Positions 7,787 through 22,225 of a DNA stretch of 64,000 nt are shown here, piece after piece (within the stretch, counting starts at the first letter, position 1; each line of letters begins with the position of its first letter). The notes under the pieces are model-generated. The model was given only the letters and a program-made list of their open reading frames with translations. It was not told where the DNA came from and did not search any database. The translations under genes and the position numbers were made by a program. Source of the stretch: Actinobacteria bacterium HGW-Actinobacteria-6 (GTDB taxonomy: Bacteria > Actinomycetota > Coriobacteriia > Anaerosomatales > Anaerosomataceae); NCBI GenBank assembly GCA_002841295.1, contig PHEU01000005.1, positions 1 through 64,000 of the forward strand. Reading direction: 5' to 3'.

Positions 7787-8872
7787 CTACACGAATCGGG
7801 CGAGGATTTCCTCGTACATCTCGGCGGCACGCTCGATGCGCTCGATCGGGCAGCTCTCGTTTGTGGTGTGCGCCGCGTCCGGGTTTCCCGGGCCAAGGAA
7901 GACTGTCTCGGTGCAGCCGAGCGCCTCGCTCAAGACGGAGGCGTCGGTGAAGTACGAGAGCGGCGAGCGTGGCTCGGTTCCCGCGATCTCACGGGCGAGC
8001 GCAGCGAGTGGCGCGTGCGGCTCCGAGTAGACTGGTGCGCGGTCAAGGAGGACTTGTAGTGCGACCTCCGGGCCGGCAAGCGCTTGCACGTGCGCGAGTA
8101 TCTCGGCAGAGCTGATGCCGGGCACGAGGCGGATGTCGATGGTCATAGACGCGGTGTCCGGAACGAGGTTCGTCTGGATGCCGCCGGAAAACGTGCCGAC
8201 ATTTGCGGTGGTGCCGCCCATAACGGGGTGGACTCCGGGCAGGACCTCCTCGGCCAAACGCACTGCGAGGCGGGCGAGAGGCGTGATCGCGCTCACGCCA
8301 AGGTCGGGCCTGGACCCGTGCGCCGAGACGCCCGTGGCGCTTGCGCGCAGCCAGAACGCTCCCTTGTGACCGGTGGTCACGCGGTTGGATGTGGGCTCAG
8401 CGATGAGCATCGGGCCGCCGCCTGGAAGCGACAGGTGATCTACGAGGTGTTGCACGCCCTCGCAGCCGGTCTCTTCGGCCGCCGAGAGGATGAGCATGAC
8501 GCCGCGTGCTGGCACGCCGCGCTTCAGGTGCCGTACGAGTGCGGTCACAAGCGCGGCCACGCCCGATTTCATGTCACTGGAGCCACGGCCGTAGAGTCGG
8601 CCGTTCGCGATATCTGCCGAGAGCGGACCGTGCACCCAGAGTGCGGGGTCGGCTGGCACCGTGTCGAGGTGACCGCTTAAGACGAGAGGGGAGTCGCTGG
8701 TATCGCCCGCATGTGCCACGAGGGTGCTACGTCCGGGGGCGAAGGTATCGTACTCGAGCCGGGCGCCTGCGGACTCCAAGATCGCGCCTACGAGCAGCGC
8801 AGCGTGTTCTTCGCCTGCGCCGGCGGTATCGAGCCGCACGAGCTCACGGGTGAGTTCGACGACGTCGATCAC
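7787..8872 (-). CDS. M20 family metallopeptidase (ArgE/DapE-type deacylase)
   Basis: 361-residue cytoplasmic zinc amidohydrolase. The start is the GTG at 8872-8870, which overlaps the stop of the lacI-family gene (GTGA), with GGAGG a few bases upstream; a longer frame to 8977 would run through the regulator. M20 motifs are intact: SGHLDTVP (His68, Asp70), RGSSDMKSG (Asp100), AAEETG (Glu133/Glu134), IAEP (Glu159), and a C-terminal His in a GPGNPDAAHTTNE segment. The lid/dimerisation domain (about 170-280) begins with TGHKGAFWLR. The substrate cannot be told from sequence: N-acyl amino acids, small peptides or succinyl-diaminopimelate are all possible. Coupling to the regulator suggests it serves the same catabolic regulon. 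Confidence 0.9.
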   Translation of the reverse strand: MIDVVELTRELVRLDTAGAGEEHAALLVGAILESAGARLEYDTFAPGRSTLVAHAGDTSDSPLVLSGHLDTVPADPALWVHGPLSADIANGRLYGRGSSDMKSGVAALVTALVRHLKRGVPARGVMLILSAAEETGCEGVQHLVDHLSLPGGGPMLIAEPTSNRVTTGHKGAFWLRASATGVSAHGSRPDLGVSAITPLARLAVRLAEEVLPGVHPVMGGTTANVGTFSGGIQTNLVPDTASMTIDIRLVPGISSAEILAHVQALAGPEVALQVLLDRAPVYSEPHAPLAALAREIAGTEPRSPLSYFTDASVLSEALGCTETVFLGPGNPDAAHTTNESCPIERIERAAEMYEEILARFV

Positions 8873-9873
8873 GACTGGCCTCCGGTGGACTCGCGCACCA
8901 CGAGAGATGGAGCGATCGCGATACGCTGCACCGGCGTGTCCTGCTCGGCCATGCGCGCGTCCAGCAGGCGGATACACTCTGCGGCCAGCTGTTCATGCGG
9001 CTGGCGCACCGTTGTGAGCGGCGGATCCGCCAGCGCCGCGAAGCGGATATCGTCGAAGCCGGTGACAAGCACGTCCTCGGGAACTCGAATCTGACGTCGC
9101 CTGAATTCACGCAGAACTCCCACGGCGATCTCGTCGTTGCCGCAGACCACGGCGTCGGGCAACACGCTGCCCGTAGCGAGCTCCTGAGCGGCGGCGCGTC
9201 CCCACTCGGCACGGTAGGTCCCAAAGAGCTGCTGGGTGTCATCCGGCAAGCCCAGGCGTGCCATCGCGCGCTTGAAGCCCGTATAACGCTGAACTGCCGA
9301 AGAGCTATCGAGCTTGGCGTTCACGAACGCGATATTCCGAGCACCAAGTGATGCGAGGTGCTCCACCGCAAGCCCGATACCGAGTTCATCGTCAACGCCG
9401 ACCCAGTCGGCTGCGTACTCTTCCACGAAGCGGTCGACCTGCACAACTGGCGTCTGGTGAGGTATCCGTTCCAAGGCGTCCCGGCTAGCAGCTGCTGAGA
9501 CAGGAATGATGATGAGCCCGTCCACCTGCCTGTCCGCTAGCGCCTGGACCCGACTCAGTTCGATGCCGACGTCTTGCTGAGCATCGCATAAGAAGAGGTC
9601 GCGTCCCGACTCTTGAAGACGGCGTTCGACGGCCTCGACGATGGCGGGGAAGAAGGGGTTTCCGATCTCGGGTACGACCATGCCGATCGTGTTGCTGCGA
9701 CCACGACGCAGTGCGCGCGCGACCGCGTTGTGTCGGTAGCCCAACGTGCGTGCGGCTTCTTGTACGCTGGTCACCAGATCCGGCGTGACCTTGCGGCTCC
9801 CCGTGAGAACCCGTGATGCAGTTGCAACGGAGACACCTGCGCGCTCTGCGACGTCGCGGATGGTCGGCGTCAT
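8869..9873 (-). CDS. LacI-family transcriptional regulator
   Basis: 334 residues. ATG 9873 is chosen since it gives the canonical N-terminus TIRDVAERAGVSVATASRV (helix-turn-helix at residues 4-23, then hinge helix around VTSVQEAARTLGYRHNAVAR). The rest is a periplasmic-binding-like effector domain (about 60-330). A GAGGGA site precedes the start. It is transcribed away from the ribose-type ABC operon; a perfect operator lies next to that operon's promoter and a poorer copy lies 58 bases upstream of its own start, so it should repress the operon and probably itself. The effector is likely a sugar or nucleoside; this is inference from the operon. Confidence 0.94.
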   Translation of the reverse strand: MTPTIRDVAERAGVSVATASRVLTGSRKVTPDLVTSVQEAARTLGYRHNAVARALRRGRSNTIGMVVPEIGNPFFPAIVEAVERRLQESGRDLFLCDAQQDVGIELSRVQALADRQVDGLIIIPVSAAASRDALERIPHQTPVVQVDRFVEEYAADWVGVDDELGIGLAVEHLASLGARNIAFVNAKLDSSSAVQRYTGFKRAMARLGLPDDTQQLFGTYRAEWGRAAAQELATGSVLPDAVVCGNDEIAVGVLREFRRRQIRVPEDVLVTGFDDIRFAALADPPLTTVRQPHEQLAAECIRLLDARMAEQDTPVQRIAIAPSLVVRESTGGQS

Positions 9874-9930: not shown

Positions 9931-9946
9931 ACGAGAACGTTTACCC
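9931..9946. promoter_or_regulatory. Secondary LacI-type operator, upstream of the regulator gene
   Basis: ACGAGAACGTTTACCC matches 12 of 16 positions of the perfect palindrome at 10021-10036, with the right half (AACGTTTACCC) intact. Centre-to-centre distance between the two sites is 90 bases, about 8.5 helical turns, so looping is possible but not clearly phased. Confidence 0.6.
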
Positions 9947-9982
9947 AAGAGGGCGCAATTCCGACCCTTCACGCATTGATGC

Positions 9983-10010
9983 TTGACGAAAGTCACTCTG
10001 TAACTAAGAT
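9983..10010 (+). promoter_or_regulatory. Promoter of the ribose-type ABC/nucleoside operon
   Basis: TTGACG (9983-9988), 16-base spacer, TAAGAT (10005-10010). Predicted transcription start is near 10017, placing the perfect operator at about +4 to +20, a position for direct repression. This and the two operators account for most of the 190-base divergent intergenic region 9874-10063. Confidence 0.7.
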
Positions 10011-10020
10011 TACAAGCAAG

Positions 10021-10036
10021 GGGTAAACGTTTACCC
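10021..10036. promoter_or_regulatory. Primary LacI-type operator
   Basis: GGGTAAACGTTTACCC is a perfect 16-bp palindrome with the central CG typical of LacI/GalR-family operators. It lies just downstream of the predicted -10 box and upstream of the binding-protein gene. Confidence 0.85.
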
Positions 10037-10063: not shown

Positions 10064-11044
10064 ATGGCAAGACGTAAGGGACTGAGGCTCGTAGCGCTGA
10101 TAGCTCTCGTAGCTATGCTCGCGCTAAGCGCAGCCGGTTGCGCTGCAAAGACCGACGACAGCTCGACATCTGGCGAGACCGCGGCCAAGCCAAAGGTAGG
10201 TCTGGTTCAGATCAACCAGCAGGCCATCTTCTTCAATCAGATGAATGAGGGCGCGCAGGAGTACGCAGACGCAAACGGCGTCGACCTCACGATCTTCAAT
10301 GCCAACGATGATGCCGCGAAGCAGAACGAGGCGATTTCAAACTTTGTGACACAGGGCTTCGACGCCATCGTCGTCGTTGCGATCGACGTTGAGGGCATCA
10401 AGCCGGCGCTTGCCGAGGCCGCAGCTGCAGGCATCAAGATCGTTGCGGTTGACGCAGTTATCGAAGATCCCGCTGTCAACGTCCAGGTTGGCGTGGACAA
10501 CGCTGCCGCAGGCGCCAAGATCGGCGAGTTCGTTGCCGAGTACATCAAGACCAACAATATCTCGCCCGCGAATATCGGTGTCATCGGCGCGCTCAACTCT
10601 TTCATCCAGAACCTGCGCAAGGACAGCTTCGTTGAGGTCGTAGAGGCTGCCGGCGCGAAGATCACCCAGACAGTAGACGGTCAGAATCGCCAGGAAGTGG
10701 CAATGACCGCTTCTGAGAACCTGTTCACCGCCCAGAAGGACACCAGCATCATCTACACCACCGGTGAGCCCCAGATGGTCGGCGCTGTTGCTGCGACGCG
10801 TTCGCAGAACAGAATGGATACCATGAAGCTGTTCGGCTGGGACCTCACTGCAGAGGTCATCACTGGCATCGACGACGGATTCGTTATCGGTGTTGTGCAG
10901 CAGGACCCGAAGACCGAGGGTTTTGAAGCCGTGAAGGCATGTGCGACGCTTGTGTCCGGCGGAAGCGTCGAAGCGTTCATCGACGTGCCGATCGTTATCG
11001 TTACCAAGGACAACGTGGAGCCGTACCGCGCAATCTTCAAGTAA
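10064..11044 (+). CDS. Ribose/nucleoside-type ABC transporter substrate-binding lipoprotein
   Basis: 326 residues. The signal peptide ends in a lipobox ALSAAGC (Cys26 lipidated). The mature part is an RbsB-like type I binding protein (PKVGLVQINQQAIFFNQMNEG, then GFDAIVVVAIDVEGIKPAL and KIVAVDAVIEDP). It begins with a GGAGGGAG ribosome-binding site and is the first gene of the operon. It should bind a pentose-like ligand or a ribonucleoside outside the membrane; the nucleoside hydrolase and ribokinase in the same operon suggest a riboside or ribose. Confidence 0.92.
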   Translation: MARRKGLRLVALIALVAMLALSAAGCAAKTDDSSTSGETAAKPKVGLVQINQQAIFFNQMNEGAQEYADANGVDLTIFNANDDAAKQNEAISNFVTQGFDAIVVVAIDVEGIKPALAEAAAAGIKIVAVDAVIEDPAVNVQVGVDNAAAGAKIGEFVAEYIKTNNISPANIGVIGALNSFIQNLRKDSFVEVVEAAGAKITQTVDGQNRQEVAMTASENLFTAQKDTSIIYTTGEPQMVGAVAATRSQNRMDTMKLFGWDLTAEVITGIDDGFVIGVVQQDPKTEGFEAVKACATLVSGGSVEAFIDVPIVIVTKDNVEPYRAIFK

Positions 11045-11078
11045 TACGAACGGATCCGTTAGCGTCGTGGAGGGTGCT

Positions 11079-11831
11079 ATGACCGCAGAAGTACAGCCGG
11101 ACCGCGTGGTCCTTAAGGACATACGCAAGAGGTTCGGCATGGTTGAAGCGCTGCGGGGAGTCACCCTCCGCGTCGCTCCCGGTGAAGTCGTCGGGCTGGT
11201 GGGCGACAATGCCGCCGGCAAGTCGACGCTCATGAAGGTGCTGTCGGGGGCGTATGTGCCCGACAGCGGTGAGATCTGGATCGACGGAACGTGTGTGGAG
11301 TACTCTTCACCACGTCACGCACAGCAGCTCGGTATTGAGATGGTCTATCAGGACCTCGCACTCTGCGACGATATCGATGTTGCAGGCAACATCTTTCTCG
11401 GACGAGAACCGCGGCTCGCGGGTGGCATCGTGCTCGACAAGAAGACAATGCATGCCAACGCTCGCCGTCTGCTCGACTCGCTCAAGATCCGCATACCCTA
11501 CACCGATCTGCCTGTGAGAAATCTCTCTGGCGGTCAGCGTCAGGCGGTTGCAATCGCGCGCGCGGTCAACTTCGAGCCGCGGCTTCTTATCCTCGATGAA
11601 CCCACGGCCGCTCTTGCCGTCTCGGAAGTTGAGACCGTACTGTCGCTCATCCGGACCGTTGCGGCCCGGGGAGTCGGCGTTATCTTGATCACTCATCGTT
11701 TGCAGGACCTGTTCGTGGTCTGCGACCGGTTTTGCGTTATGTACGAGGGGACACTTCGAGCTGATCTGTGTGCCGCTGAGGCGTCCCTTGAGACACTCGT
11801 TCAGGAAATCGTAGGAGGGGGACACGAATGA
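11079..11831 (+). CDS. Sugar-type ABC transporter ATP-binding protein, single-domain
   Basis: 250 residues; start ATG 11079 with GGAGGG upstream, not the longer frame that overlaps the binding protein. Walker A GDNAAGKS, signature LSGGQRQAVAIARA, Walker B LLILDEP, switch region ILITHR. The ribose family's RbsA normally has two fused ATPase halves (about 500 residues); this is a single half, as in FrcA-type transporters, so it would act as a homodimer. It overlaps the permease gene by 4 bases. Confidence 0.93.
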   Translation: MTAEVQPDRVVLKDIRKRFGMVEALRGVTLRVAPGEVVGLVGDNAAGKSTLMKVLSGAYVPDSGEIWIDGTCVEYSSPRHAQQLGIEMVYQDLALCDDIDVAGNIFLGREPRLAGGIVLDKKTMHANARRLLDSLKIRIPYTDLPVRNLSGGQRQAVAIARAVNFEPRLLILDEPTAALAVSEVETVLSLIRTVAARGVGVILITHRLQDLFVVCDRFCVMYEGTLRADLCAAEASLETLVQEIVGGGHE

Positions 11832-12850
11832 GCGCTGCGAAGTCCCCTGACTGTGTGCCAGTAGAGGCTACGACGGCATCGCGCGCCGAGCATATGCGCG
11901 CCTGGGCCCTCAGCAACATTCTCACGATGGCTGTTGGCGTCGTGCTTCTGGTACTCGTCGTATTCTTCAGCTTCACGGCCGACAGGTTCATGTCGCTGCC
12001 GAACGTGCTCAATATGTTGCGCCAGATAGCTCCTACGCTGATCGTCGCAGTCACGATGACGTTCGTCATCACGACTTCGGGCATCGATCTCTCCGTGGGT
12101 TCGATGGTGGCGCTTTCCGGGTCATTGCTTGCGATCATGATCCATGCCGGTTGGAATCCCACGGTAGCGCTCCTCTTGGTGCTGCTGCTTGGTGTCGTGG
12201 TCGGTGCCGTGAACGGATGGTTCTCCTCGTATCAGGGACTGCCTCCGTTCATCGTCACACTCGCGACGCTTTCGGTGGTCAGAGGCTCCGCGTTGCTCTT
12301 CACGGGTGGGTACTCAACCCCGATCTCGAGCGATGCCTGGGTGACCGTGCTTGGACAAGGTCGTGTGGCCGGCGTGCCGGTGCCGGCCATCATCGCTGTT
12401 CTCGTCGCGATAGCCGGCGGACTGGTATTCACCCAGACACCGTACGGGCGCTATGTGGTCGGCCTCGGCTCAAACGCAGAATCGCTGCGCCGCACCGGCG
12501 TCAACACCCGGTTCGTTGGCCTGATGGTCTACATCATGTCTGGCCTGGCTGCATCGACCGCTGGCGTGTTGGTTGCAGCGCGGCTCGCCTCGGGCTCATC
12601 GAATGCCGGTGTTGGATTTGAACTCGAAGTGATCACCGCGGTCGTCCTGGGCGGAACGAGCCTACTCGGCGGTCGCGGCAGCGTTGTCGGTACCGCAATC
12701 GGAGCCCTCGTCCTCGGCGTGATCGCGAACGGACTCGTCTTGCTGCACGTGTCGCCGTTCTACATTCAGATCGTACAAGGCGCCATCCTGCTCATCGCCA
12801 TCTTCCTCAACACCCGGTTGTTCTCGCGATTTGGAACAGTGGTGCGCTGA
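11828..12850 (+). CDS. Ribose-type ABC transporter permease (RbsC family)
   Basis: 340-residue permease with eight to ten hydrophobic segments. Family features are TSGIDLSVGSMVALSG near residue 80, the VGLGSNAESLRRTGVNT coupling loop near residues 212-228, and a C-terminal GGTSLLGGRGSVVGT segment. It overlaps the ATPase gene by 4 bases and the next gene by 1 base (TGATG), so the enzyme downstream is coupled to the transporter. Confidence 0.93.
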   Translation: MSAAKSPDCVPVEATTASRAEHMRAWALSNILTMAVGVVLLVLVVFFSFTADRFMSLPNVLNMLRQIAPTLIVAVTMTFVITTSGIDLSVGSMVALSGSLLAIMIHAGWNPTVALLLVLLLGVVVGAVNGWFSSYQGLPPFIVTLATLSVVRGSALLFTGGYSTPISSDAWVTVLGQGRVAGVPVPAIIAVLVAIAGGLVFTQTPYGRYVVGLGSNAESLRRTGVNTRFVGLMVYIMSGLAASTAGVLVAARLASGSSNAGVGFELEVITAVVLGGTSLLGGRGSVVGTAIGALVLGVIANGLVLLHVSPFYIQIVQGAILLIAIFLNTRLFSRFGTVVR

Positions 12851-13890
12851 TGACCATGGTGAGGACCGTCCTCGGCGAGATTGATTCCTCTCAGCTGGGC
12901 GCGACGCTCTTTCATGAGCACCTCATCATCGACGGCAGCACGGCGTGGAGAGCTCCCGAGTCTGATGATTCTGCGGGCAGGGAGATTGCGCGAAATCCCA
13001 TTCAGATGAGCTACCTGGGACGACTGCGCGATGACCCCTATCTGTCGTTGGATAACACGCGCCTTGATGATGTCGATGTCGCTATTGAAGAGGCATCGTT
13101 GTTCAAAGCCGCGGGCGGCTCGACGATCGTTGAGGTCACACCTGCGGCTGTCGGCCGAAATCCGATTGCATTGAGGGACATTGCTGCGGCCACAGGTCTG
13201 AACGTCGTCATGGGCTCTGGTTTTTACCTCGAGCGCACGCATCCCAAGGCGTTGGCGACGATGAGCATCGACGGCATCGCCGCCGCGGTAGAGCACGACA
13301 TACTCGTTGGCGTGGATGGTGTACAAGCCGGCGTGATCGGTGAGATCGGCGTGGGTCTGGAGTTCACAGATGCCGAGCAGCGATCGCTGCGCGGTGCCGC
13401 TCGCGCGGCGGCTCGCACAGGAGTGCCGCTGTCGGTGCATCTTCCTGGGTGGCATCGCTACGGACATAGGGTGCTCGACATCGTCGAAGAAGAGGGGTGC
13501 AGCCCGTCTGCGACGGTCCTCTCGCATATGAATCCGAGCATGGATGACCTCGAGTATCAGCGCGCACTTGCACGCCGAGGCGCGTGGATCGAGTACGACA
13601 TGCTCGGCATGGAGTTCTACTACCAGGGCGAAGGCCAGAGTCCGAGCGACGAGGACAACGCGCGCGCCATCGCGCGGCTCATCGAGGACGGGTTCAAAGA
13701 TCGACTGCTGCTCTCACACGACATATTCATCAAGACGCTCCTCACGCGCTACGGTGGCTTTGGGTACGCGCATGTGCTCACCGGCTTCGCCGATCGCCTG
13801 GAGCGGTGCGGGGTTCCGCGTGACACCTTGCTCGGCATACTTACCGACAACCCGCGAGGCGTATTTGAGCGCGCTGCGGAAGGAGACTGA
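12850..13890 (+). CDS. Phosphotriesterase-family metal-dependent hydrolase
   Basis: 346-residue TIM-barrel amidohydrolase-superfamily protein. Predicted binuclear metal ligands are visible: His22 and His24 (FHEH), His197 (SVHLPGWH), His226 (LSHMNP) and Asp291 (LSHD). At the place of the carboxylated lysine of true phosphotriesterase there is Glu165 (VIGEIG), the variant known from the phosphotriesterase homology protein group, whose members act as lactonases or on phosphorylated sugar lactones rather than on organophosphates. Its ATG overlaps the permease stop. In this operon it may open a lactone or hydrolyse a modified sugar or nucleoside; the substrate is unknown. Confidence 0.88.
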   Translation: MTMVRTVLGEIDSSQLGATLFHEHLIIDGSTAWRAPESDDSAGREIARNPIQMSYLGRLRDDPYLSLDNTRLDDVDVAIEEASLFKAAGGSTIVEVTPAAVGRNPIALRDIAAATGLNVVMGSGFYLERTHPKALATMSIDGIAAAVEHDILVGVDGVQAGVIGEIGVGLEFTDAEQRSLRGAARAAARTGVPLSVHLPGWHRYGHRVLDIVEEEGCSPSATVLSHMNPSMDDLEYQRALARRGAWIEYDMLGMEFYYQGEGQSPSDEDNARAIARLIEDGFKDRLLLSHDIFIKTLLTRYGGFGYAHVLTGFADRLERCGVPRDTLLGILTDNPRGVFERAAEGD

Positions 13891-13891
13891 C

Positions 13892-14641
13892 ATGACGAAG
13901 GTTCTTATCGCTGGTGAGTCCTGGGTGAGTGAAGCTACTCACTACAAAGGCTTTGACTCATTCACGTCGGTGACGTTTCACACGGGCGTCGATCCGCTGC
14001 GCGATGCACTGACGGCTGAGGGCATCGAAGTCGTCTATATGCCGGCACACGAGGTGCCGGAGCGATTCCCGATGACCGTTGAGGCGTTCAATGAGTTCGA
14101 TGTCGTGATTCTCTCGGACATCGGTGCGAACAGCATCCTCATCCACCCCGACACGTGGCTGCACGGCAGGCGCACTCCTAATCGCCTCAAGGCACTTGCC
14201 GAGTGGGTTAATGCGGGTGGTGGACTGATGATGGCCGGCGGCTATATGAGCTTCCAGGGTTTTGAGGGCAAGGCCATGTATCGGGGAACGGCTGTCGATG
14301 ATGTACTTCCTTCGATCATCGACCCATGGGATGACCGGGTTGAAACACCTGAAGGCGCGGAGTCGACCGTGCTAGACGCCTCGCACCCCATCCTTGCAGG
14401 TGTGGACGGGGAGTGGCCTGTGCTTCTCGGCTACAACCGCTTCACGGCGAAAGCTGACGCGCACGTTCTTGTGCACGTGGGCGAAGATCCGCTGTTGGTT
14501 GTTCGCGAGGTCGGCCGCGGCCGAACGCTTGCGTGGGCGTCTGACATCGGACCGCACTGGTGCCCCGACGAGTTTGTCGAATGGCCTGGCTATCAGCATC
14601 TCTTCTCGCAGGCTGTCACGTGGCTCGCGGGCGGGCGGTAA
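13892..14641 (+). CDS. Class I glutamine-amidotransferase-like protein
   Basis: 249 residues, start ATG 13892 with AGGAG upstream. It resembles the putative glutamine amidotransferase family PF07090: N-terminal VLIAGESWVSEATHYKGFDSF, VVILSDIGANS, then LAEWVNAGGGLMMAGGYMSFQG, where a class I amidotransferase would carry its nucleophile elbow but no cysteine is seen. The C-terminal part contains LAWASDIGPHWCP with a conserved-looking Cys. It is probably not a functional glutaminase; family members often sit in sugar-catabolic operons and lack an assigned reaction. It is sandwiched between the phosphotriesterase-like enzyme and the nucleoside hydrolase and overlaps the latter by one base. Confidence 0.8.
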   Translation: MTKVLIAGESWVSEATHYKGFDSFTSVTFHTGVDPLRDALTAEGIEVVYMPAHEVPERFPMTVEAFNEFDVVILSDIGANSILIHPDTWLHGRRTPNRLKALAEWVNAGGGLMMAGGYMSFQGFEGKAMYRGTAVDDVLPSIIDPWDDRVETPEGAESTVLDASHPILAGVDGEWPVLLGYNRFTAKADAHVLVHVGEDPLLVVREVGRGRTLAWASDIGPHWCPDEFVEWPGYQHLFSQAVTWLAGGR

Positions 14642-15579
14642 TGCCGATGGCCACCCCGATGATCCTCGACTGCGACCCCGGCCACGATGATGCGCTTGCG
14701 ATTCTGCTTGCCGCGTCGCATCCGGCTATCGATCTGCTCGCGATCACCACGGTTGCGGGTAATCAGACCATGGAAAAGTGCACGATCAATGCTCGGCGGA
14801 TCTGCTCGGCGGCCGGAATCACGGACGTGCCGATCGCCAAGGGTGCTGCCGAGCCGCTCCTTGGGACACTGCATATCGGAGAGTACGTTCACGGTGTCTC
14901 CGGACTTGATGGTCCCGAGTGGGGCGAGCCTACCGTCGGTGTCTCCAGTGAGAGTGCTGTAGAGCTTATCGTGCGCTTGCTGCGAGAGCACCCGGAGCCG
15001 ATCACGCTGGTGCCGGTTGGTCCGCTCACGAACATCGCACTCGTCTTGAAATCGCACCCTGAGCTCAAGCCCAAGATTCGTGAGATCGTGCTCATGGGCG
15101 GGTCGACCGAGCGCGGGAACGACACACCATACGCCGAGTTCAACATCAAGGTGGATCCGGAGGCGGCCGATATCGTGTTCCGCTCCGGTGTTCAGGTGAC
15201 GATGGTCGGCTTGAATGTGACGCATCAGGCGCTTGCCGTTCCTGAGGTACTTGAGCGCTTGAGCGGTTTGGGCACGCGGATGGGCGACCTGTGTGTTGAG
15301 CTACTCACGTTCTTCTCGGCAAGCTATCTACGGACATGGGGATTCACCTCACCGCCGCTGCACGATGCGGTGGCTGTGGCGCGCGTTATCGATCCGACGT
15401 TGGTTGAGTGCATACCTGTACCAGTGGTGATCGAGACTATGGGTCGATTCACCAGCGGTGCCACGTGCGTCGATCTGCATCACCTCACTGGTGAGCCGGA
15501 CAACGCGCTCGTGGCGATGAAGCTGGATGCTCCGAGGTTCTGGGATCTGATGATAGAGGCGGTCAGCACCTATGAGTGA
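14641..15579 (+). CDS. Inosine/uridine-preferring nucleoside hydrolase family protein
   Basis: 312 residues; ATG 14641 overlaps the previous stop by one base. The calcium-binding N-terminal motif DCDPGHDDA (Asp10, Asp12, Asp16, Asp17) is intact; other family landmarks are TTVAGNQ (residue 38 on), VPVGPLTNIA, VLMGGS, AEFNIKVDPEAA and the late Asp in LHDAVAVA. The enzyme hydrolyses the N-glycosidic bond of ribonucleosides giving ribose and base. The following ribokinase would phosphorylate the ribose released, so these two define the likely pathway of the operon. Confidence 0.92.
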   Translation: MPMATPMILDCDPGHDDALAILLAASHPAIDLLAITTVAGNQTMEKCTINARRICSAAGITDVPIAKGAAEPLLGTLHIGEYVHGVSGLDGPEWGEPTVGVSSESAVELIVRLLREHPEPITLVPVGPLTNIALVLKSHPELKPKIREIVLMGGSTERGNDTPYAEFNIKVDPEAADIVFRSGVQVTMVGLNVTHQALAVPEVLERLSGLGTRMGDLCVELLTFFSASYLRTWGFTSPPLHDAVAVARVIDPTLVECIPVPVVIETMGRFTSGATCVDLHHLTGEPDNALVAMKLDAPRFWDLMIEAVSTYE

Positions 15580-16462
15580 AGTCGTCGTTATCGGCAGTAT
15601 CAACGTCGATCGTTCCGTCAGCGTGCCGGGCGCCCCGCTGCGCGGCGCGACACTGCTCGGCGGGGGTGTGAGGCGCGGTCCTGGCGGCAAGGGAGCCAAT
15701 CAGGCGGTTGCACTCGCACGGCTCGGCCGTTCTGTCGCCATGATCGGTGCTGTTGGTAACGATGCCGACGGTGACTGGATGCTCTCGATTCTCGCTGAGG
15801 AAGGCATCGACGTGAGCGGTGTCGTTCGCGTACCGGATCCGACAGGGCAAGCATTCATCTTTGTGGAGTCGGACGGGGAGAGCACGATCGTCGTGAGTCC
15901 CGGCGCCAACAGCGCTCTTACGCCTGAGCTGCTTGATAACAGCCGCGACGCGATTGCATCTGCGCGGTGCGTTCTGGTTCAACAGGAGATTCCCTCGGCC
16001 ACTGTCGAGCGCGCCGCAGAGCTGGCAGAAGGCATCTTCGTTCTCAATCCTGCACCGGCGCGACCTGTGTCTGAGGAGCTATTAGCCCGGGTTGATGTGC
16101 TGGTTCCTAATCGGTTCGAGCTGGCGGGGCTTACCGGCGGGCTGGTCCCGCAATCGACGGATGATGTTGCCCGCATGGCTCTCGCATTTGGCGGGTCTCA
16201 GGCTGTCGTTGTGACACTCGGGTCCGACGGTGCGGTAGTTGCCGAGGCGGGAGTTGCATCAGAGGTTCCTGCGACTCGTGTGGAGGCCGTGGACGCGACA
16301 GCGGCCGGGGATACGTTCTGTGGCGCACTCGTCGACGCTCTACTCGACGGCATGAGCCTCGTAGGGGCATCGGCATGGGCTTCTCGAGCGGCAGCCTTCG
16401 CTGTCAGCCGACACGGTGCTCAGGAGTCGATTCCGTATCGTGCCGATGTTGTCGACAACTAG
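15572..16462 (+). CDS. rbsK: Ribokinase
   Basis: 296-residue PfkB-family sugar kinase. N-terminal GSINVDRSVSVPG, the substrate-binding GPGGKGANQAVALARLG, and the C-terminal DATAAGDTFCGAL carrying the catalytic Asp are all present. It overlaps the nucleoside hydrolase by 8 bases and is the last gene of the operon. Reaction: D-ribose + ATP to ribose 5-phosphate. Ribokinase rather than fructokinase or adenosine kinase is chosen for its length, motifs and context. Confidence 0.9.
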   Translation: MSEVVVIGSINVDRSVSVPGAPLRGATLLGGGVRRGPGGKGANQAVALARLGRSVAMIGAVGNDADGDWMLSILAEEGIDVSGVVRVPDPTGQAFIFVESDGESTIVVSPGANSALTPELLDNSRDAIASARCVLVQQEIPSATVERAAELAEGIFVLNPAPARPVSEELLARVDVLVPNRFELAGLTGGLVPQSTDDVARMALAFGGSQAVVVTLGSDGAVVAEAGVASEVPATRVEAVDATAAGDTFCGALVDALLDGMSLVGASAWASRAAAFAVSRHGAQESIPYRADVVDN

Positions 16463-16515
16463 CAGACGCCTCATCTAAAGCAGCAACCTCAGCGGACGTT
16501 GATTTAGGCGTCTGC
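16462..16515 (+). terminator. Possible long-loop hairpin after the ribokinase operon
   Basis: GCAGACGCCT (16462-16471) pairs with AGGCGTCTGC (16506-16515), but the loop is 34 bases and no T-run follows, so it is a weak terminator candidate. It could also be an RNA structure in the leader of the next gene. Confidence 0.3.
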
Positions 16516-16611
16516 GGCTCGGCAGCGGGATTTTATCGTGCGCATGTCAGTTGCTTTTGGTACGGTGTGCCAGCAGGTAATCAGCGTGGTCTCTTTGGGG
16601 GAGGAGCGTTC

Positions 16612-18969
16612 ATGTTTCGTCGCGCGCACAGTGGTTCTTCGCGCATGCTCATTTGTGTCTTGATGAGTGTCGTGCTCGTCGCAATCGGAATTCCTGGAAT
16701 CGCATGTGGAGCGAACCGTGGTGCCAGTCCGATTTCACTCGGCCAGCACACCGTGGGAGGCGGAATCGCTCCAGCAGGCACCAATGCTTCATTCATGGGC
16801 GTGGTGACCGATGCCGCGACGGGTCTGCCCATCAAGGGTGCTTGGGTAAGCATCTACAGCAGTACAGCCTATTTCGAGGCCGAGACTGACGATGCAGGTA
16901 TCTATCATCTCAATACGGGCTGGAGATACTCGGATGGCGGGGTCGTTTTGCTGCCCGCCGGTACCTACGAGGTCGACTTCTGGGCCGAGGGCTACGACGA
17001 CGCCTACATTGACGGAACCGCAGTCGCAGGACAAATCACCATCCTCGACGCGCAACTTGAGGCGTATCAGGAGCCGGGCGAACTGCAGGTTGCTGTGGGC
17101 AACGGAACCTCGGCGTTGAGCGACTTCTGGGTGAGCGTGTACCAGAATGGTCCGGACGGCATGGAGTTCGTCGACGGAACGGGTCCGTATTGGGGCGACA
17201 ACGCAGATGCCACCTTTTACCTCGACCCCGGTACGTACTACGTTTGGGCGACTGCGCCCGGACGCTCTCCCGAGTTCTACAACGACAAGGCGACATTGGA
17301 AACTGCTACTCCGGTCGAGGTCACCTCGGCTGGCACAGAGCGGATTTCGATGGTTCTGGCACCGGCCGCCTTGGCGAGCTACGACATCACGGTAGTCGAT
17401 GGTTCGTCTGCTCTGCCGCTTCAGGGTATCTTCGTTGAATTCCTGCAGTACGGCCCGCTCGGCGAGGAGGTATGGAGCGCTTCTACCGATAACGTGACCG
17501 GGGTAAGTGGTCATGCGGTTGGCACGCTTTCGGCTGGCAACTTCCGACTCTCGTTTGATGACTACGATGGCGAGATCTACGCGAGCGAGTACTACGACAA
17601 CGTGGTCCTCTCGGAAAGCGCGACTCCAGTCGCTATGAAGGCGGGCGAAACGACTTCTCTGACGGTGCCACTAGAGGTAGCGTCAACCGTCTCGGGCACG
17701 AACTACGACAGCACAGACACTGGCTACTTCCCGATCGGCGGGGACGAGGCCGTCGAGCTGCTTTCCTATGACGCATCCACCGATGAGTGGGAAAGCGTCT
17801 ACTGGACGGGCTGGAATGACAACGGCACGTTCAATCTGACGGGTATCCATTCCGGAGTGTATCGCGCTGTTTCGTATCGATGGTCAGACACTGAAGACGA
17901 CTTGGAGATGGCCTACTACACGAACACGGGAACGGTGGACGACATCTCCCTGGCTGATGACATCGTTGTTCCGGTCACCGGGACGATCCAGGGTATCGAC
18001 TTCCACTTCAGCAGCTACATCCCGATTCCTGATACTCCGGTCATGCGCATCGCCGGTAAGAACAGGTACACGACCGCGATCGAGACGAGCGAGGCGAACT
18101 TCACCAGCGCGGACACCATTGTGCTCGCAACGGGCGCGAACTTCCCTGATGCGCTTTCCGCCTCGGCTCTTGCCGGTGCATACGGTGGGCCGCTTTTGCT
18201 GACCGAGCCCACGCGACTGACGTCAGGTGTGGCAACCGAGATCGCACGGCTTAAGGCAACCAAAGTCGTGATCATCGGCTCGACGGCAGCGGTCTCCAGT
18301 GGCGTCGCGAATCAACTTGCCGCGATTCCCGGACTCTCGGTCGATCGTGTCTACGGCGAGAACCGCTATGAGACGTCAGCTGAGATTGCTTATCGGGTCG
18401 CAGAGCTTACCGGTGGCGTCTATGAGGCGTTCGTTGTGCGCGGGGACGGGTTCGCCGATGCACTCGCTGCATCGCCGATTGCGTACAACAACGTGATTCC
18501 GGTTCTGTTGACGAAGACGGCGTCGCTGAGTCCTGAGGCTGAGATGGCGCTTGTTGATCTTGAGGTTGAGAGCGTCATCATCGCGGGATCGACCAAGGCA
18601 GTTTCTACGACCGTCGTGAAGTCGATAGAGGCCCTGTCGAGTGATATGTATGTTGAGCGAGTGTACGGTGCCGACAGGTATGCAACCGCAGCCAATCTCG
18701 CTTCCTGGGCCGTTGAGTGGGGCTACAGCGGCAAGGGCTTTGTCGGTGTTGCGACCGGCACCAACTTCCCTGATGCTCTCGGAGGGGGCGCTGCGTGCGG
18801 CGCTCATCGTGGAGTATTGTTGCTGACGAGTCCGACGGCGCTGAGTGAGCCTGCGGAGAAGTTCCTGACGCAGTACGGCAACAAGTACACGCAGGTACAG
18901 GTGTTCGGTTCATCGGCAGCGGTGAGTGACGGAGTGAAGAGCAGTATCGCGAACGCCATACCGAAGTAG
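16612..18969 (+). CDS. Secreted surface protein with three cell-wall-binding type 2 repeats
   Basis: 785 residues; ATG 16612 preceded by GGAGGAG. The N-terminus is a signal peptide (basic start, hydrophobic 12-28). Residues about 58-150 form a carboxypeptidase-regulatory-like beta-sandwich (GVVTDAATGLPIKGAWVS, then LPAGTYEVDFWAEGYDDAY), with further beta-rich segments to about 470. From about residue 478 three repeats of the cell-wall-binding type 2 family follow, starting at RIAGKNRYTTA, RVYGENRYETS (about 577) and RVYGADRYATA (about 681), each containing an ATGxNFPDAL or equivalent segment. Such triplets attach proteins non-covalently to anionic wall polymers in Gram-positive bacteria. The beta-sandwich part may be adhesive or structural; no enzyme motif was seen. 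The protein is rich in Asp, Glu, Tyr and Thr. Confidence 0.9.
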   Translation: MFRRAHSGSSRMLICVLMSVVLVAIGIPGIACGANRGASPISLGQHTVGGGIAPAGTNASFMGVVTDAATGLPIKGAWVSIYSSTAYFEAETDDAGIYHLNTGWRYSDGGVVLLPAGTYEVDFWAEGYDDAYIDGTAVAGQITILDAQLEAYQEPGELQVAVGNGTSALSDFWVSVYQNGPDGMEFVDGTGPYWGDNADATFYLDPGTYYVWATAPGRSPEFYNDKATLETATPVEVTSAGTERISMVLAPAALASYDITVVDGSSALPLQGIFVEFLQYGPLGEEVWSASTDNVTGVSGHAVGTLSAGNFRLSFDDYDGEIYASEYYDNVVLSESATPVAMKAGETTSLTVPLEVASTVSGTNYDSTDTGYFPIGGDEAVELLSYDASTDEWESVYWTGWNDNGTFNLTGIHSGVYRAVSYRWSDTEDDLEMAYYTNTGTVDDISLADDIVVPVTGTIQGIDFHFSSYIPIPDTPVMRIAGKNRYTTAIETSEANFTSADTIVLATGANFPDALSASALAGAYGGPLLLTEPTRLTSGVATEIARLKATKVVIIGSTAAVSSGVANQLAAIPGLSVDRVYGENRYETSAEIAYRVAELTGGVYEAFVVRGDGFADALAASPIAYNNVIPVLLTKTASLSPEAEMALVDLEVESVIIAGSTKAVSTTVVKSIEALSSDMYVERVYGADRYATAANLASWAVEWGYSGKGFVGVATGTNFPDALGGGAACGAHRGVLLLTSPTALSEPAEKFLTQYGNKYTQVQVFGSSAAVSDGVKSSIANAIPK

Positions 18970-18975
18970 GGAATC

Positions 18976-19947
18976 ATGCGAGTTCTCGTCACCGGCGGAG
19001 CCGGCTACATAGGTTCGATCACAGCGCGTACGCTGCTTGATTCAGGGCACGATGTCGTGGTTCTCGACACGCTCGAGAAGGGGCATCGCTGGGCCGTCGA
19101 CACACGCGCAGAGCTCGTCGTTGGCGATGTCGGTGACCGCAATGTTGTCCTGGGCTGCCTTGCGGGCGTGGACGCCGTGATGCACCTTGCGGGATACATA
19201 GAAGTGGCCGAGTCGCAGGCTGATCCCGAGCGCTACTTCGATAACAACGTCACACGACCGCTGGTGATGCTGCAGGCGATGGAAGAGCTCGGCATCGATG
19301 CCATCGCGTTCTCGTCGACAGCGGCGGTCTACGGCGAGCCTGAGCAGGTTCCCATTGACGAGACGGCTTCAAAGCGCCCGGTGAATGCATATGGGGAGAG
19401 CAAGCTGGCGTTTGAGGGAGTTCTGGACGATGCCGCTGCGGCATGGGGACTTAGGTCCGTGCGTCTTCGGTACTTCAACGTCGCCGGAGCATGGCCCGAC
19501 GGCTCGCTGGGTGAAGCGCATGATCCTGAGACACACATCATCCCGCGCATCCTCGGCGCTATCGCGGGCGGGCGCACAGCGTTCGAAGTGTATGGCGACG
19601 ATTACCCGACGCCTGACGGCACCTGCGTGCGCGACTATATACACGTGTGCGACCTTGCGCGCGCTCATGTATTGGCACTTGAATACCTTCACGCAGGTGG
19701 TGAGGGTGTCGTGTGTAACCTCGGCAATGGCCAGGGCTTCAGCAATCTGGAAGTCGTGAAGGCGTGTTCGGAGGTTACCGGCGTTTCTCTGGCGATCGAA
19801 TTCGGGCCGAGAAGAGCAGGCGATCCGGCAATCCTTGTCGCCTCGGCTTCGCAAGCACGCGCGGTTCTTGGATGGGAACCGGCGTATGGCGACTTGCAGG
19901 TGATGGTGCAAGACGCCTGGCGGTGGTGTCAGCGGATTGTGCAATAA
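18976..19947 (+). CDS. galE: UDP-glucose 4-epimerase
   Basis: 323-residue extended short-chain dehydrogenase. The NAD-binding GGAGYIGS is at residues 7-14, the catalytic pair is Ser123/Thr124 region (FSSTAAVYG) with YGESK (Tyr-x3-Lys), and DYIHVCDLARAH is typical of GalE. It interconverts UDP-glucose and UDP-galactose, supplying galactose for envelope polysaccharides. It starts 6 bases after the first surface-protein gene and ends just before the second, so it is probably cotranscribed with them. Confidence 0.93.
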   Translation: MRVLVTGGAGYIGSITARTLLDSGHDVVVLDTLEKGHRWAVDTRAELVVGDVGDRNVVLGCLAGVDAVMHLAGYIEVAESQADPERYFDNNVTRPLVMLQAMEELGIDAIAFSSTAAVYGEPEQVPIDETASKRPVNAYGESKLAFEGVLDDAAAAWGLRSVRLRYFNVAGAWPDGSLGEAHDPETHIIPRILGAIAGGRTAFEVYGDDYPTPDGTCVRDYIHVCDLARAHVLALEYLHAGGEGVVCNLGNGQGFSNLEVVKACSEVTGVSLAIEFGPRRAGDPAILVASASQARAVLGWEPAYGDLQVMVQDAWRWCQRIVQ

Positions 19948-20008
19948 TGCGTCACGGGGCTGCCGGGTCCACTACCGGTGGTGGAAATTGATCAGGGGCG
20001 GGGGAATC

Positions 20009-22225
20009 GTGAGAAGTTCTACTCGGAGTGGAGCTCGCTATTGCGTTGTCGCGGTATTGGCGACGGCTCTGGTCATGGGCATCGTGCCACTGAGCGTGGC
20101 CGCGACCGAGACGAGCGTATTCGATACTTCCGTGGCGACCAACAAGGTGGCCGCATCGCTGTACGGAAAGACCTTCGCTGATGCCGACGGGGTACGTGAC
20201 CTGGGCTTGGCGGCAATCTCACCACTGGTATCCGATGACACGATCTCTGGCGCCGTCGCGATTCCCGCCACACCGTTCGCCGGAGCGTTGAGTTTCACAT
20301 CTGATCCAACTGATGTCTACACAGTCGCTCTCACGGGCGGGACGCGGCTCACCGTGGTGCTCACGGGCGAGGCACAGCTCTCCTGCGACGCGTATCTCTA
20401 TGAGCCGTACACGACCGATGCCAATGCGTCGTATGCCATGGCTGGAACACTCGGTGATGGCTACCCCAAAAAGCTCACCTTCGATGTACCTTCCGGTGCT
20501 GATGGCAACTACCATCTCGCGATCGATGCTGCAGCGGGGACAGGCTTGTACAACATCGCGTGGTCCACGTGCCCGGTTCCGTCGGGTCCGGATGACAGTA
20601 TTCCCGGAATCGTTCCTTCATCCAACTCGTTCGGTGACACCCTGGATTGCACCACCGACTCCGATGACGTGTTCCGGCTTTCGCTTGCAGAAGGCAAGAG
20701 GCTGCAAGTCGCGCTTACGGGTGCGGCTGGCACCGATTTCGATCTGTACCTCTACGCACCCGGGTCAACGAGCGTCGGGCTAGACCTTCCCATCGGAGGG
20801 TCTGCAGGCAACGCCTCTTCCGAAGCATTCCTGTATGACGTCCCCTCTGGTGGCGCGGGCACGTACTACCTCGTTGCACATGCCGCCACCGGCGATGGCG
20901 CGTACACGCTTGACTGGTCAGTGACCGACGTCCCGGTCGGGACGTGGCAAACCAGGTCGTCAGCCGTACCGTTTTCGGTCATGACTGGCTCGGTGCAAGG
21001 TTTCCTCAATCTGCTCACCAACGCGAACGATGTCTACTCTGTGGTCTTGACCGCTGGAGACCGCTTTGACGTCACGCTCTCGGGTGGCGCCGACACGGAC
21101 TTTGATCTGTATATCTATAGTCCGACCGGGGCACCCGTTGCTTGGTCGAATGATCTCGCATACCCGGAACGAGCAGTCCTCGATGCGACGACGCCAGGTA
21201 CGTACTACATCGAGGCACGAGCGTTTAGTGGCTCGGGCGCGTACTCGCTGCAGTACGCGACCTCTCGAACTCCGGTGTGGATTGCGACCAGTCGTTTGGC
21301 CGGTGATGATCGCTACAAGACCGCAGTCAAACTGTCGCAGTCAGCCTATGCAGATGACGCGTGCGCAACCGTTGTAATGGCAACAGGGGAGGACTTCCCT
21401 GATGCTCTGTCAGCGTCGGGACTCGCGGGAGCCTACGGTAGTCCGATTCTGCTCACCAGGAAGTCTGGTGTGTCTTCTGAGGTGTTTGCCGAGCTCAAGC
21501 GGCTTGGTGCGCGGAAGGTCGTTCTTATCGGAGGCACTCCGACGCTGCCGACGCCCATAGCGACCTCGCTTACCAAAGCAGGCTACACGGTTGCTCGAGT
21601 GGCTGGCGTCAACCGCTATGCCACATCGGCAGCTGTCGCCTCCGAAATTTCGCGCCTCAAAGGATCCACGTTCGCCAAGAAGGCGTTCGTCGCCCGTGGC
21701 GACTTGTTCGCGGACGCACTCGCGCTGTCGCCATTCGCATACCGCCAGGGTTACCCGGTCCTTCTGACCCGCACAGAGAATCTAGCTCCCGAGTGCTCCG
21801 CCGCGATCACCTCTCTCAGCATCTCTGAGGTGTACATCGCTGGCAGCACGAGCGCCGTCAGTGCCGCGGTCATGAAGTCGCTCAATGCGCTTCCTCCCGT
21901 GACGATGCCGGTGGTCCGGCTTGCTGGCGCCAATCGCTACGCGACGGCAGTTGCAATTGCGGAGTACGGTATCGATTTCTGGTGGGGCACCGCTTCGTAC
22001 GCAGGAATCGCCACTGGTACCAACTTCCCCGATGCTCTGGGTGGCGGCGCAGTGACTGGCTCCAAAGGGGGAGTCATGCTGCTCACCGACCCGAAGACGT
22101 TGTCATCACCCACGTCGGCGTTTCTGAAGAGCAACGCCCGCGATGTGAAGTCCAGCCAGATTTACGGCGGCATCAGCGCGGTGAGTGACGACGTGCGCTC
22201 CCAGGTGGATGGTGTCCTCAAATAG
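20009..22225 (+). CDS. Secreted surface protein with pre-peptidase C-terminal-like repeats and three cell-wall-binding type 2 repeats
   Basis: 738 residues from GTG 20009 (GGGGGA just upstream); a longer frame from 19937 overlaps galE. A signal peptide with likely cleavage after SVAA precedes three beta-sandwich repeats resembling bacterial pre-peptidase C-terminal domains (about 85-190, 200-305, 315-420; each has a DxYxVxL...G...xVxLTG...xDxDLYLY pattern). From about residue 428 follow three cell-wall-binding type 2 repeats starting RLAGDDRYKTA, RVAGVNRYATS (about 529) and RLAGANRYATA (about 635). It shares the anchoring module with the protein on the other side of galE but has a different N-terminal part. 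Probably a wall-associated surface or S-layer-like protein; function unknown. Confidence 0.9.
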   Translation: MRSSTRSGARYCVVAVLATALVMGIVPLSVAATETSVFDTSVATNKVAASLYGKTFADADGVRDLGLAAISPLVSDDTISGAVAIPATPFAGALSFTSDPTDVYTVALTGGTRLTVVLTGEAQLSCDAYLYEPYTTDANASYAMAGTLGDGYPKKLTFDVPSGADGNYHLAIDAAAGTGLYNIAWSTCPVPSGPDDSIPGIVPSSNSFGDTLDCTTDSDDVFRLSLAEGKRLQVALTGAAGTDFDLYLYAPGSTSVGLDLPIGGSAGNASSEAFLYDVPSGGAGTYYLVAHAATGDGAYTLDWSVTDVPVGTWQTRSSAVPFSVMTGSVQGFLNLLTNANDVYSVVLTAGDRFDVTLSGGADTDFDLYIYSPTGAPVAWSNDLAYPERAVLDATTPGTYYIEARAFSGSGAYSLQYATSRTPVWIATSRLAGDDRYKTAVKLSQSAYADDACATVVMATGEDFPDALSASGLAGAYGSPILLTRKSGVSSEVFAELKRLGARKVVLIGGTPTLPTPIATSLTKAGYTVARVAGVNRYATSAAVASEISRLKGSTFAKKAFVARGDLFADALALSPFAYRQGYPVLLTRTENLAPECSAAITSLSISEVYIAGSTSAVSAAVMKSLNALPPVTMPVVRLAGANRYATAVAIAEYGIDFWWGTASYAGIATGTNFPDALGGGAVTGSKGGVMLLTDPKTLSSPTSAFLKSNARDVKSSQIYGGISAVSDDVRSQVDGVLK

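Follow-up and report, generated by a model that had tools for sequence, protein, structure and literature searches.

The window analysed here (64,000 nucleotides; contig PHEU01000005.1, positions 1 to 64,000, forward strand) comes from Actinobacteria bacterium HGW-Actinobacteria-6 and contains a divergent locus of nine genes that we regard, with moderate confidence, as a LacI-repressed operon for the use of one particular modified riboside. According to this proposal, an ABC transporter would import the riboside, and its decoration would be processed by a phosphotriesterase-like metallohydrolase (PTE), which would cleave an ester, amide, lactam or lactone, and by a PF07090 protein through a ThuA-like reaction. 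A nucleoside hydrolase would then free the ribose, a ribokinase would make ribose 5-phosphate from it, and an M20-family amidohydrolase would hydrolyse an amide of the freed aglycone.

A broader proposal, which we put forward tentatively, is that a single riboside is used in several phyla through the PTE and PF07090 pair with two interchangeable ends, either nucleoside hydrolase and ribokinase or a riboside 5'-kinase (Asn143) and BtpA/SgcQ as a 5'-phosphoriboside glycosidase. Already in the first proposal, Proteobacteria and one Bacillota genome, which share the importer, PTE and PF07090 protein, would phosphorylate the riboside with the Asn143 kinase before BtpA/SgcQ cleaves it. If the broader proposal were true, a catabolic enzyme role could be assigned to BtpA/SgcQ and a new ThuA-like chemistry to PF07090. 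The window locus joins a broader orphan system assembled from known families. The hydrolase-type operon points to the class of compound, a riboside and not ribose, the mutually exclusive cluster architectures make the order of steps testable, and the orphan family BtpA/SgcQ receives a concrete hypothesis.

Organization and control of the locus

Seven genes on the plus strand, described in an earlier note made from the sequence alone, were found by profile searches at the same coordinates and in clear families. They encode a substrate-binding protein of the ribose cluster (CUT2) type with a non-RbsB pocket (10064-11044; PF13407, Peripla_BP_4, 1e-45), an ABC ATPase of 250 aa with one nucleotide-binding domain (11079-11831; PF00005), an RbsC-like permease (11828-12850; PF02653, 2e-37; RbsC model, 226 bits), the PTE (cog1735; 12850-13890; PF02126, 2e-58), the PF07090 protein, with a ThuA/GATase1 fold lacking the catalytic Cys (13892-14641; 2e-99, 332 bits versus a cut-off of 27), a nucleoside hydrolase of the RihA/UriH group (14641-15579; PF01156, 2e-98) and a PfkB-type ribokinase (15572-16462; TIGR02152, 297.2 bits versus a cut-off of 299.65). 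On the minus strand lie a LacI-family repressor resembling RbsR, UriR and PurR (8869-9873; PF00356 and PF13377; RbsR model, 218 bits versus a cut-off of 382) and the ArgE/DapE-like M20 amidohydrolase (7787-8872; PF01546, 1e-31; PF07687, 3e-20), which reached no NCBIfam cut-off.

The earlier note had stated that all genes overlap. Four junctions do, namely ATPase/permease (4 nt), permease/PTE (1 nt), PF07090/hydrolase (1 nt) and hydrolase/ribokinase (8 nt), but gaps of 34 nt and 1 nt separate the binding protein from the ATPase and the PTE from PF07090, respectively. The GTG start codon of the M20 gene overlaps the LacI stop codon as GTGA, so the M20 gene is predicted to be translationally coupled to LacI, in a pair that diverges from the seven-gene operon. 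The view of the genes as one unit stands, but that description had omitted the divergent LacI gene, the M20 gene behind it and the operator. The nine genes are a real and, to judge from the sequence, tightly regulated unit, larger than the seven genes first described. Relatives in the Coriobacteriia and distant Actinomycetes, as far as the Streptosporangiaceae, retain this order of nine genes, although the proteins of the latter are mostly 44-79% identical; such conservation is well beyond chance.

Between the LacI and binding-protein genes lies a perfect 16-bp palindrome, GGGTAAACGTTTACCC (10021-10036), a predicted LacI-type operator whose 14-bp core has a single exact copy in the whole genome. 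A second operator-like half site, AACGTTTACCCA (9936-9947), recognized both as a direct repeat (D1) and in an inverted pair (I3), lies 90 bp upstream of the identical half in the main operator. In most relatives, the interval between LacI and the binding protein holds either this palindrome or a kindred one (GGGTAAACGTTTACCC, GGGTAATCGATTACCC), GGGTAATCGATTACCC being the Streptosporangiaceae version. By sequence, the LacI-M20 pair and the seven-gene operon share this one conserved operator. A genome-wide search found no second exact operator site, and hence no wider regulon was seen. Promoter-like hexamers TTGACG-16-TAAGAT (9983-10010, plus strand) are weak, and the number of such matches equals the shuffled expectation.

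The locus is flanked on one side by a histidine kinase gene with a Tll0287-like sensor domain (PF11845; 5957-7771, plus strand), convergent with the M20 gene on the other strand. Directly 3' of the operon, a GalE-like epimerase gene (18976-19947) sits between two genes for surface proteins (16375-18969 and 19937-22225, both plus strand), each of which carries three CWB2 cell-wall binding repeats.

The PTE and PF07090 pair across cluster types

Related loci were collected by scanning named genomes with a PF07090 alignment; the best 80, all anchored on PF07090, were kept, and their proportions are not unbiased. The identity of neighbouring genes was taken from BLAST comparison with reference proteins, and the counts refer to a distance of about 7 kb; clustering of the unassigned neighbouring open reading frames yielded mostly antisense shadow frames. 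The PF07090 gene is patchy, being present in 14 of 99 related genomes, and the E. coli control genome also gave a match. A PTE gene adjoins PF07090 in 59 of the 80 loci, which supports the view that both proteins belong to the pathway as constant members. The core genes are found, by sequence, in several bacterial phyla, Salmonella included.

The loci bearing a PTE fall into three types, characterized by a nucleoside hydrolase (15 loci, including that of the window), BtpA/SgcQ (24) or a DMT transporter (17), and no locus belongs to two of them. The hydrolase type has the order M20-LacI / binding protein-ATPase-permease-PTE-PF07090-hydrolase-ribokinase and occurs in Coriobacteriia, Microbispora, Nonomuraea and relatives; the M20 gene is present in 14 of its 15 loci, and a ribokinase match is absent from three (L052, L053 and L055). 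BtpA-type loci (Rhizobium, Shinella, Mesorhizobium, Pannonibacter, Paracoccus, Pantoea and one Bacillota genome) contain the same importer, PTE and PF07090 protein. These are accompanied by a PfkB kinase and BtpA, and frequently also by TenA or a Zn hydrolase of the carbamoylase-like kind. In L017 (11525-12769) and further loci of this type, a carbamoylase/allantoate-amidohydrolase-like Zn hydrolase gene occupies the slot of TenA or M20. DMT-type loci (L061-L081, L099 and L107) combine PF07090, PTE and the DMT transporter, usually with a ribokinase-like gene, and have neither hydrolase nor BtpA.

Two further observations concern PF07090 genes. In L034, a Klebsiella plasmid, and L039, PF07090 occurs without PTE beside C-N hydrolases of other kinds (M24 peptidase, nitrilase, hydantoinase), so that a connection between PF07090 chemistry and the degradation of amides or ureides is possible. 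In L023 and L047, which come from the same taxonomic order as the window but from a different family, the PF07090 protein is 81% identical to that of the window, versus 72-75% in several members of the window's own family, which hints at transfer between families.

A rival explanation is ordinary ribonucleoside salvage, in which the hydrolase and ribokinase would do the work on common pyrimidine nucleosides and PTE, PF07090 and M20 would be accessory or promiscuous hydrolases. In its favour are the placement of the hydrolase in the RihA/UriH group and the similarity of the regulator to RbsR, UriR and PurR. However, no other pair in the cluster is as constant as PTE and PF07090, which persist even where hydrolase, transporter and kinase differ; this argues against an accessory role, since accessory genes would be the first to go. 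We consider salvage of this kind unlikely.

The PTE metal ligands His22, His24, Glu165, His197, His226 and Asp291, correctly named in the earlier note, are invariant in 81 of 81 aligned sequences, and the enzyme is predicted to have a complete binuclear metal site. Its matches among solved structures include 3k2g (E 2e-101, 343 bits), which we take to be Rsp3690, and 3rhg (E 7e-66, 226 bits). The PTE of a Rhizobium BtpA-type locus matches Rsp3690 (3k2g) with 591 bits, and that of the Proteus rikA-type cluster equals Pmi1525 (PDB 3rhg/4qsf) except for two residues; the window PTE is a separate branch, farther from both.

Other cog1735 proteins are lactonases, and the PTE could thus be a lactonase in a pathway for a sugar or sugar lactone, with the hydrolase acting on an O-riboside; the substrate would be O-linked or lactone ribose. 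A phospho-furanose lactonase model matches the PTE weakly (75 bits versus a cut-off of 630), and the DMT-type clusters, devoid of hydrolase and BtpA, mostly keep ribokinase-like genes. Against this stand the full-length nucleoside hydrolase, with its intact catalytic residues, and PMC5341072, in which Rsp3690 and Pmi1525, the closest solved relatives in the sister clusters, are reported as metal-dependent (metal-stimulated) carboxylesterases of the PTE family. A lactone pathway therefore seems improbable to us. Of the substrates suggested in the earlier note (a modified nucleoside, a sugar lactone or another riboside), the case for a riboside has gained strength, and a sugar lactone has a low probability.

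The earlier note also called the PF07090 protein amidotransferase-like, a function that its sequence contradicts. The nucleophile elbow reads GGYMSF, with Tyr118 at the position of the catalytic Cys of glutamine amidotransferases. In two alignments, of 19 and of 20 diverse sequences, this Tyr never varies, nor do His222-Trp223, Asp76, Glu151 and others, and no Cys is conserved. Because Tyr118 replaces the Cys of the G-x-C-x-G motif in every aligned sequence, class I glutamine amidotransferase identity was rejected, and members of this PF07090 branch are mislabelled as "glutamine amidotransferase". The predicted structure (mean pLDDT 89) superimposes on STM3548 with a Foldseek TM of 0.89, followed by STM1381 and then by GH42 galactosidase domains and ThuA-like proteins.

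The probable ligand and two proposed routes to its cleavage

The best solved relative of the binding protein is 5hsg (282 bits), presumably from Klebsiella pneumoniae. A Klebsiella record carries a matching cluster (LacI, binding protein, ATPase, permease, PTE, PF07090 and M20), and 5HSG is probably part of the same system as the window operon. For 57 binding proteins drawn from the hydrolase and BtpA types, the two ABC types, we compared 12 pocket positions in an alignment with E. coli RbsB. Six are kept (Phe15, Phe16, Asp89, Arg141, Asp215 and Gln235), and six are changed almost without exception (Asn13 to Ala, Asn64 to Val, Arg90 to Ala, Phe164 to Asn, Asn190 to Gly and Phe214 to Trp), the pocket being identical between the two types. 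This suggests that a ribose-like part is held in the old way and that a larger or different group lies at the former Arg90, Asn13 and Asn190. Since all 57 proteins share one altered pocket, both ABC types probably bind a single ligand, distinct from free ribose, and the earlier idea that the substrate is not plain ribose has thus become probable.

The nucleoside hydrolase is the sole PF01156 gene in the genome, which has one further PfkB gene besides the ribokinase. Its best solved relative is RihA (3g5i), and it scores 347 bits, below the equivalog cut-offs of both RihA (433) and UriH (450). Aligned with RihA, its DCDPGHDD motif and His241 are conserved in more than 95% of 30 sequences. The ribose contacts described for ribokinase are Asn14, Asp16, Gly42, Lys43, Asn46, Glu143 and Asp255 (PMC9604405), and the window enzyme, whose best solved relative is E. 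coli RbsK, keeps all seven. Both enzymes are thus predicted to be intact, in agreement with the initial view that together they imply a path from riboside to ribose 5-phosphate.

Position 143 separates the two kinase groups, with Glu in 24 of 24 hydrolase-linked kinases versus Asn in 26 of 27 BtpA-linked ones, which keep the remaining sugar contacts except Asn14. Asn143 of E. coli PsuK aligns to this position, where it binds the base of pseudouridine (PMC9247573). In the tree, BtpA-linked kinases form one clade (98/89), and hydrolase-type kinases come from two separate ribokinase lineages, both with Glu143. BtpA itself is predicted to be a TIM barrel (mean pLDDT 79.8), a fold class different from that of PsuG, and its best matches (ThiE, PdxJ, RPE, TrpA, HisF and PRAI) are mostly enzymes of phosphorylated substrates. 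Taken together, the data suggest two routes to one riboside, hydrolysis then phosphorylation or phosphorylation then cleavage.

BtpA-type clusters could instead handle a different substrate; the types would then have no more than the PTE/PF07090 chemistry in common, which would invalidate the two-route model. Their kinases are indeed far from ribokinase in the TIGR02152 model (194-222 bits, versus 297 for the window, 285 for Proteus RikA and a cut-off of 299.65), but the binding-protein pocket is the same in both ABC types at all 12 positions, and we give this explanation little chance.

Several points weigh against the two-route proposal and the modified-riboside reading behind it. Because the BtpA-linked kinases are one clade, the Glu143/Asn143 contrast counts as a single evolutionary change and not as repeated evidence. 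The roles of the RbsB pocket residues are taken from general background. The amide-hydrolase slot is held by unrelated families (M20, TenA and carbamoylase-like) and is empty in some loci. In the DMT type, devoid of hydrolase and BtpA, glycosidic cleavage may take place elsewhere or may not be a core step. Moreover, esterase activity in vitro with artificial esters is a poor guide to what the PTE acts on in nature.

Salvage of thiamin breakdown products, suggested by M20 and TenA, is left as a lead, since TenA occurs in only three of the 24 BtpA-type loci. An Rfam search over 7-17 kb found no riboswitch, and thus no thiamin-type control, despite TenA in the sister clusters.

Comparison with known systems

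A literature search for this gene combination gave a single match, a June 2026 paper on Salmonella rikA-STM3548-STM3549-STM3550 (STM3547-STM3550), in which RikA phosphorylates ribose and a pathway for an unknown carbon source is proposed (PMC13432705). The core of the window locus is thus a widespread and already noticed cluster, which the earlier note had missed. The cluster was reported only in a subset of Enterobacterales, and its authors found no functional studies of STM3550 or homologues (PMC13432705); the link from STM3550 to Rsp3690 and Pmi1525 appears not to have been made there. Rsp3690, Pmi1525, STM3548 and probably 5HSG, solved structures without known physiology, become parts of one system, which RikA, a ribokinase of unexplained context, also joins. 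The window and rikA loci share a ribokinase-like PfkB protein, PF07090 (STM3548) and PTE (STM3550), grouped as in the window at 12850-16462. However, the rikA locus has a DMT transporter instead of an ABC importer, and the four-gene cluster as described lacks nucleoside hydrolase, M20 and LacI. A Proteus RikA homologue (L137:5751-6971) reads, within a single frame, as a DeoR-type helix-turn-helix (PF08220) joined to PfkB (PF00294); in Salmonella, the N-terminal part of RikA was found to be dispensable (PMC13432705).

Among characterized PTE homologues, Rsp3690 and Pmi1525 have the same metal ligands as the window enzyme. The mammalian N-acetyltaurine hydrolase PTER (PMC11374699) belongs to the same branch of the family (9efa, E 8e-59), but its substrate-side region reads PGRNER versus PGWHR in the window; this region not being common to both, PTER-like N-acetyltaurine hydrolysis was set aside.

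The E. coli rbsDACBK operon resembles the window locus in its ribose-cluster ABC importer, LacI-family repressor and ribokinase. It differs in that RbsA has two ATPase domains versus one in the window, whose ATPase covers only the first half (residues 6-239) of the 501-aa RbsA model. Moreover, the window has no rbsD, and the pocket of its binding protein is altered at Arg90, Asn190 and other positions. Finally, E. coli psuK-psuG follows a kinase-then-glycosidase logic and rihA/rihB with rbsK a hydrolase-then-ribokinase logic, both of which seem to recur in the clusters described here, but in E. coli these genes are not accompanied by PTE, PF07090 or M20.

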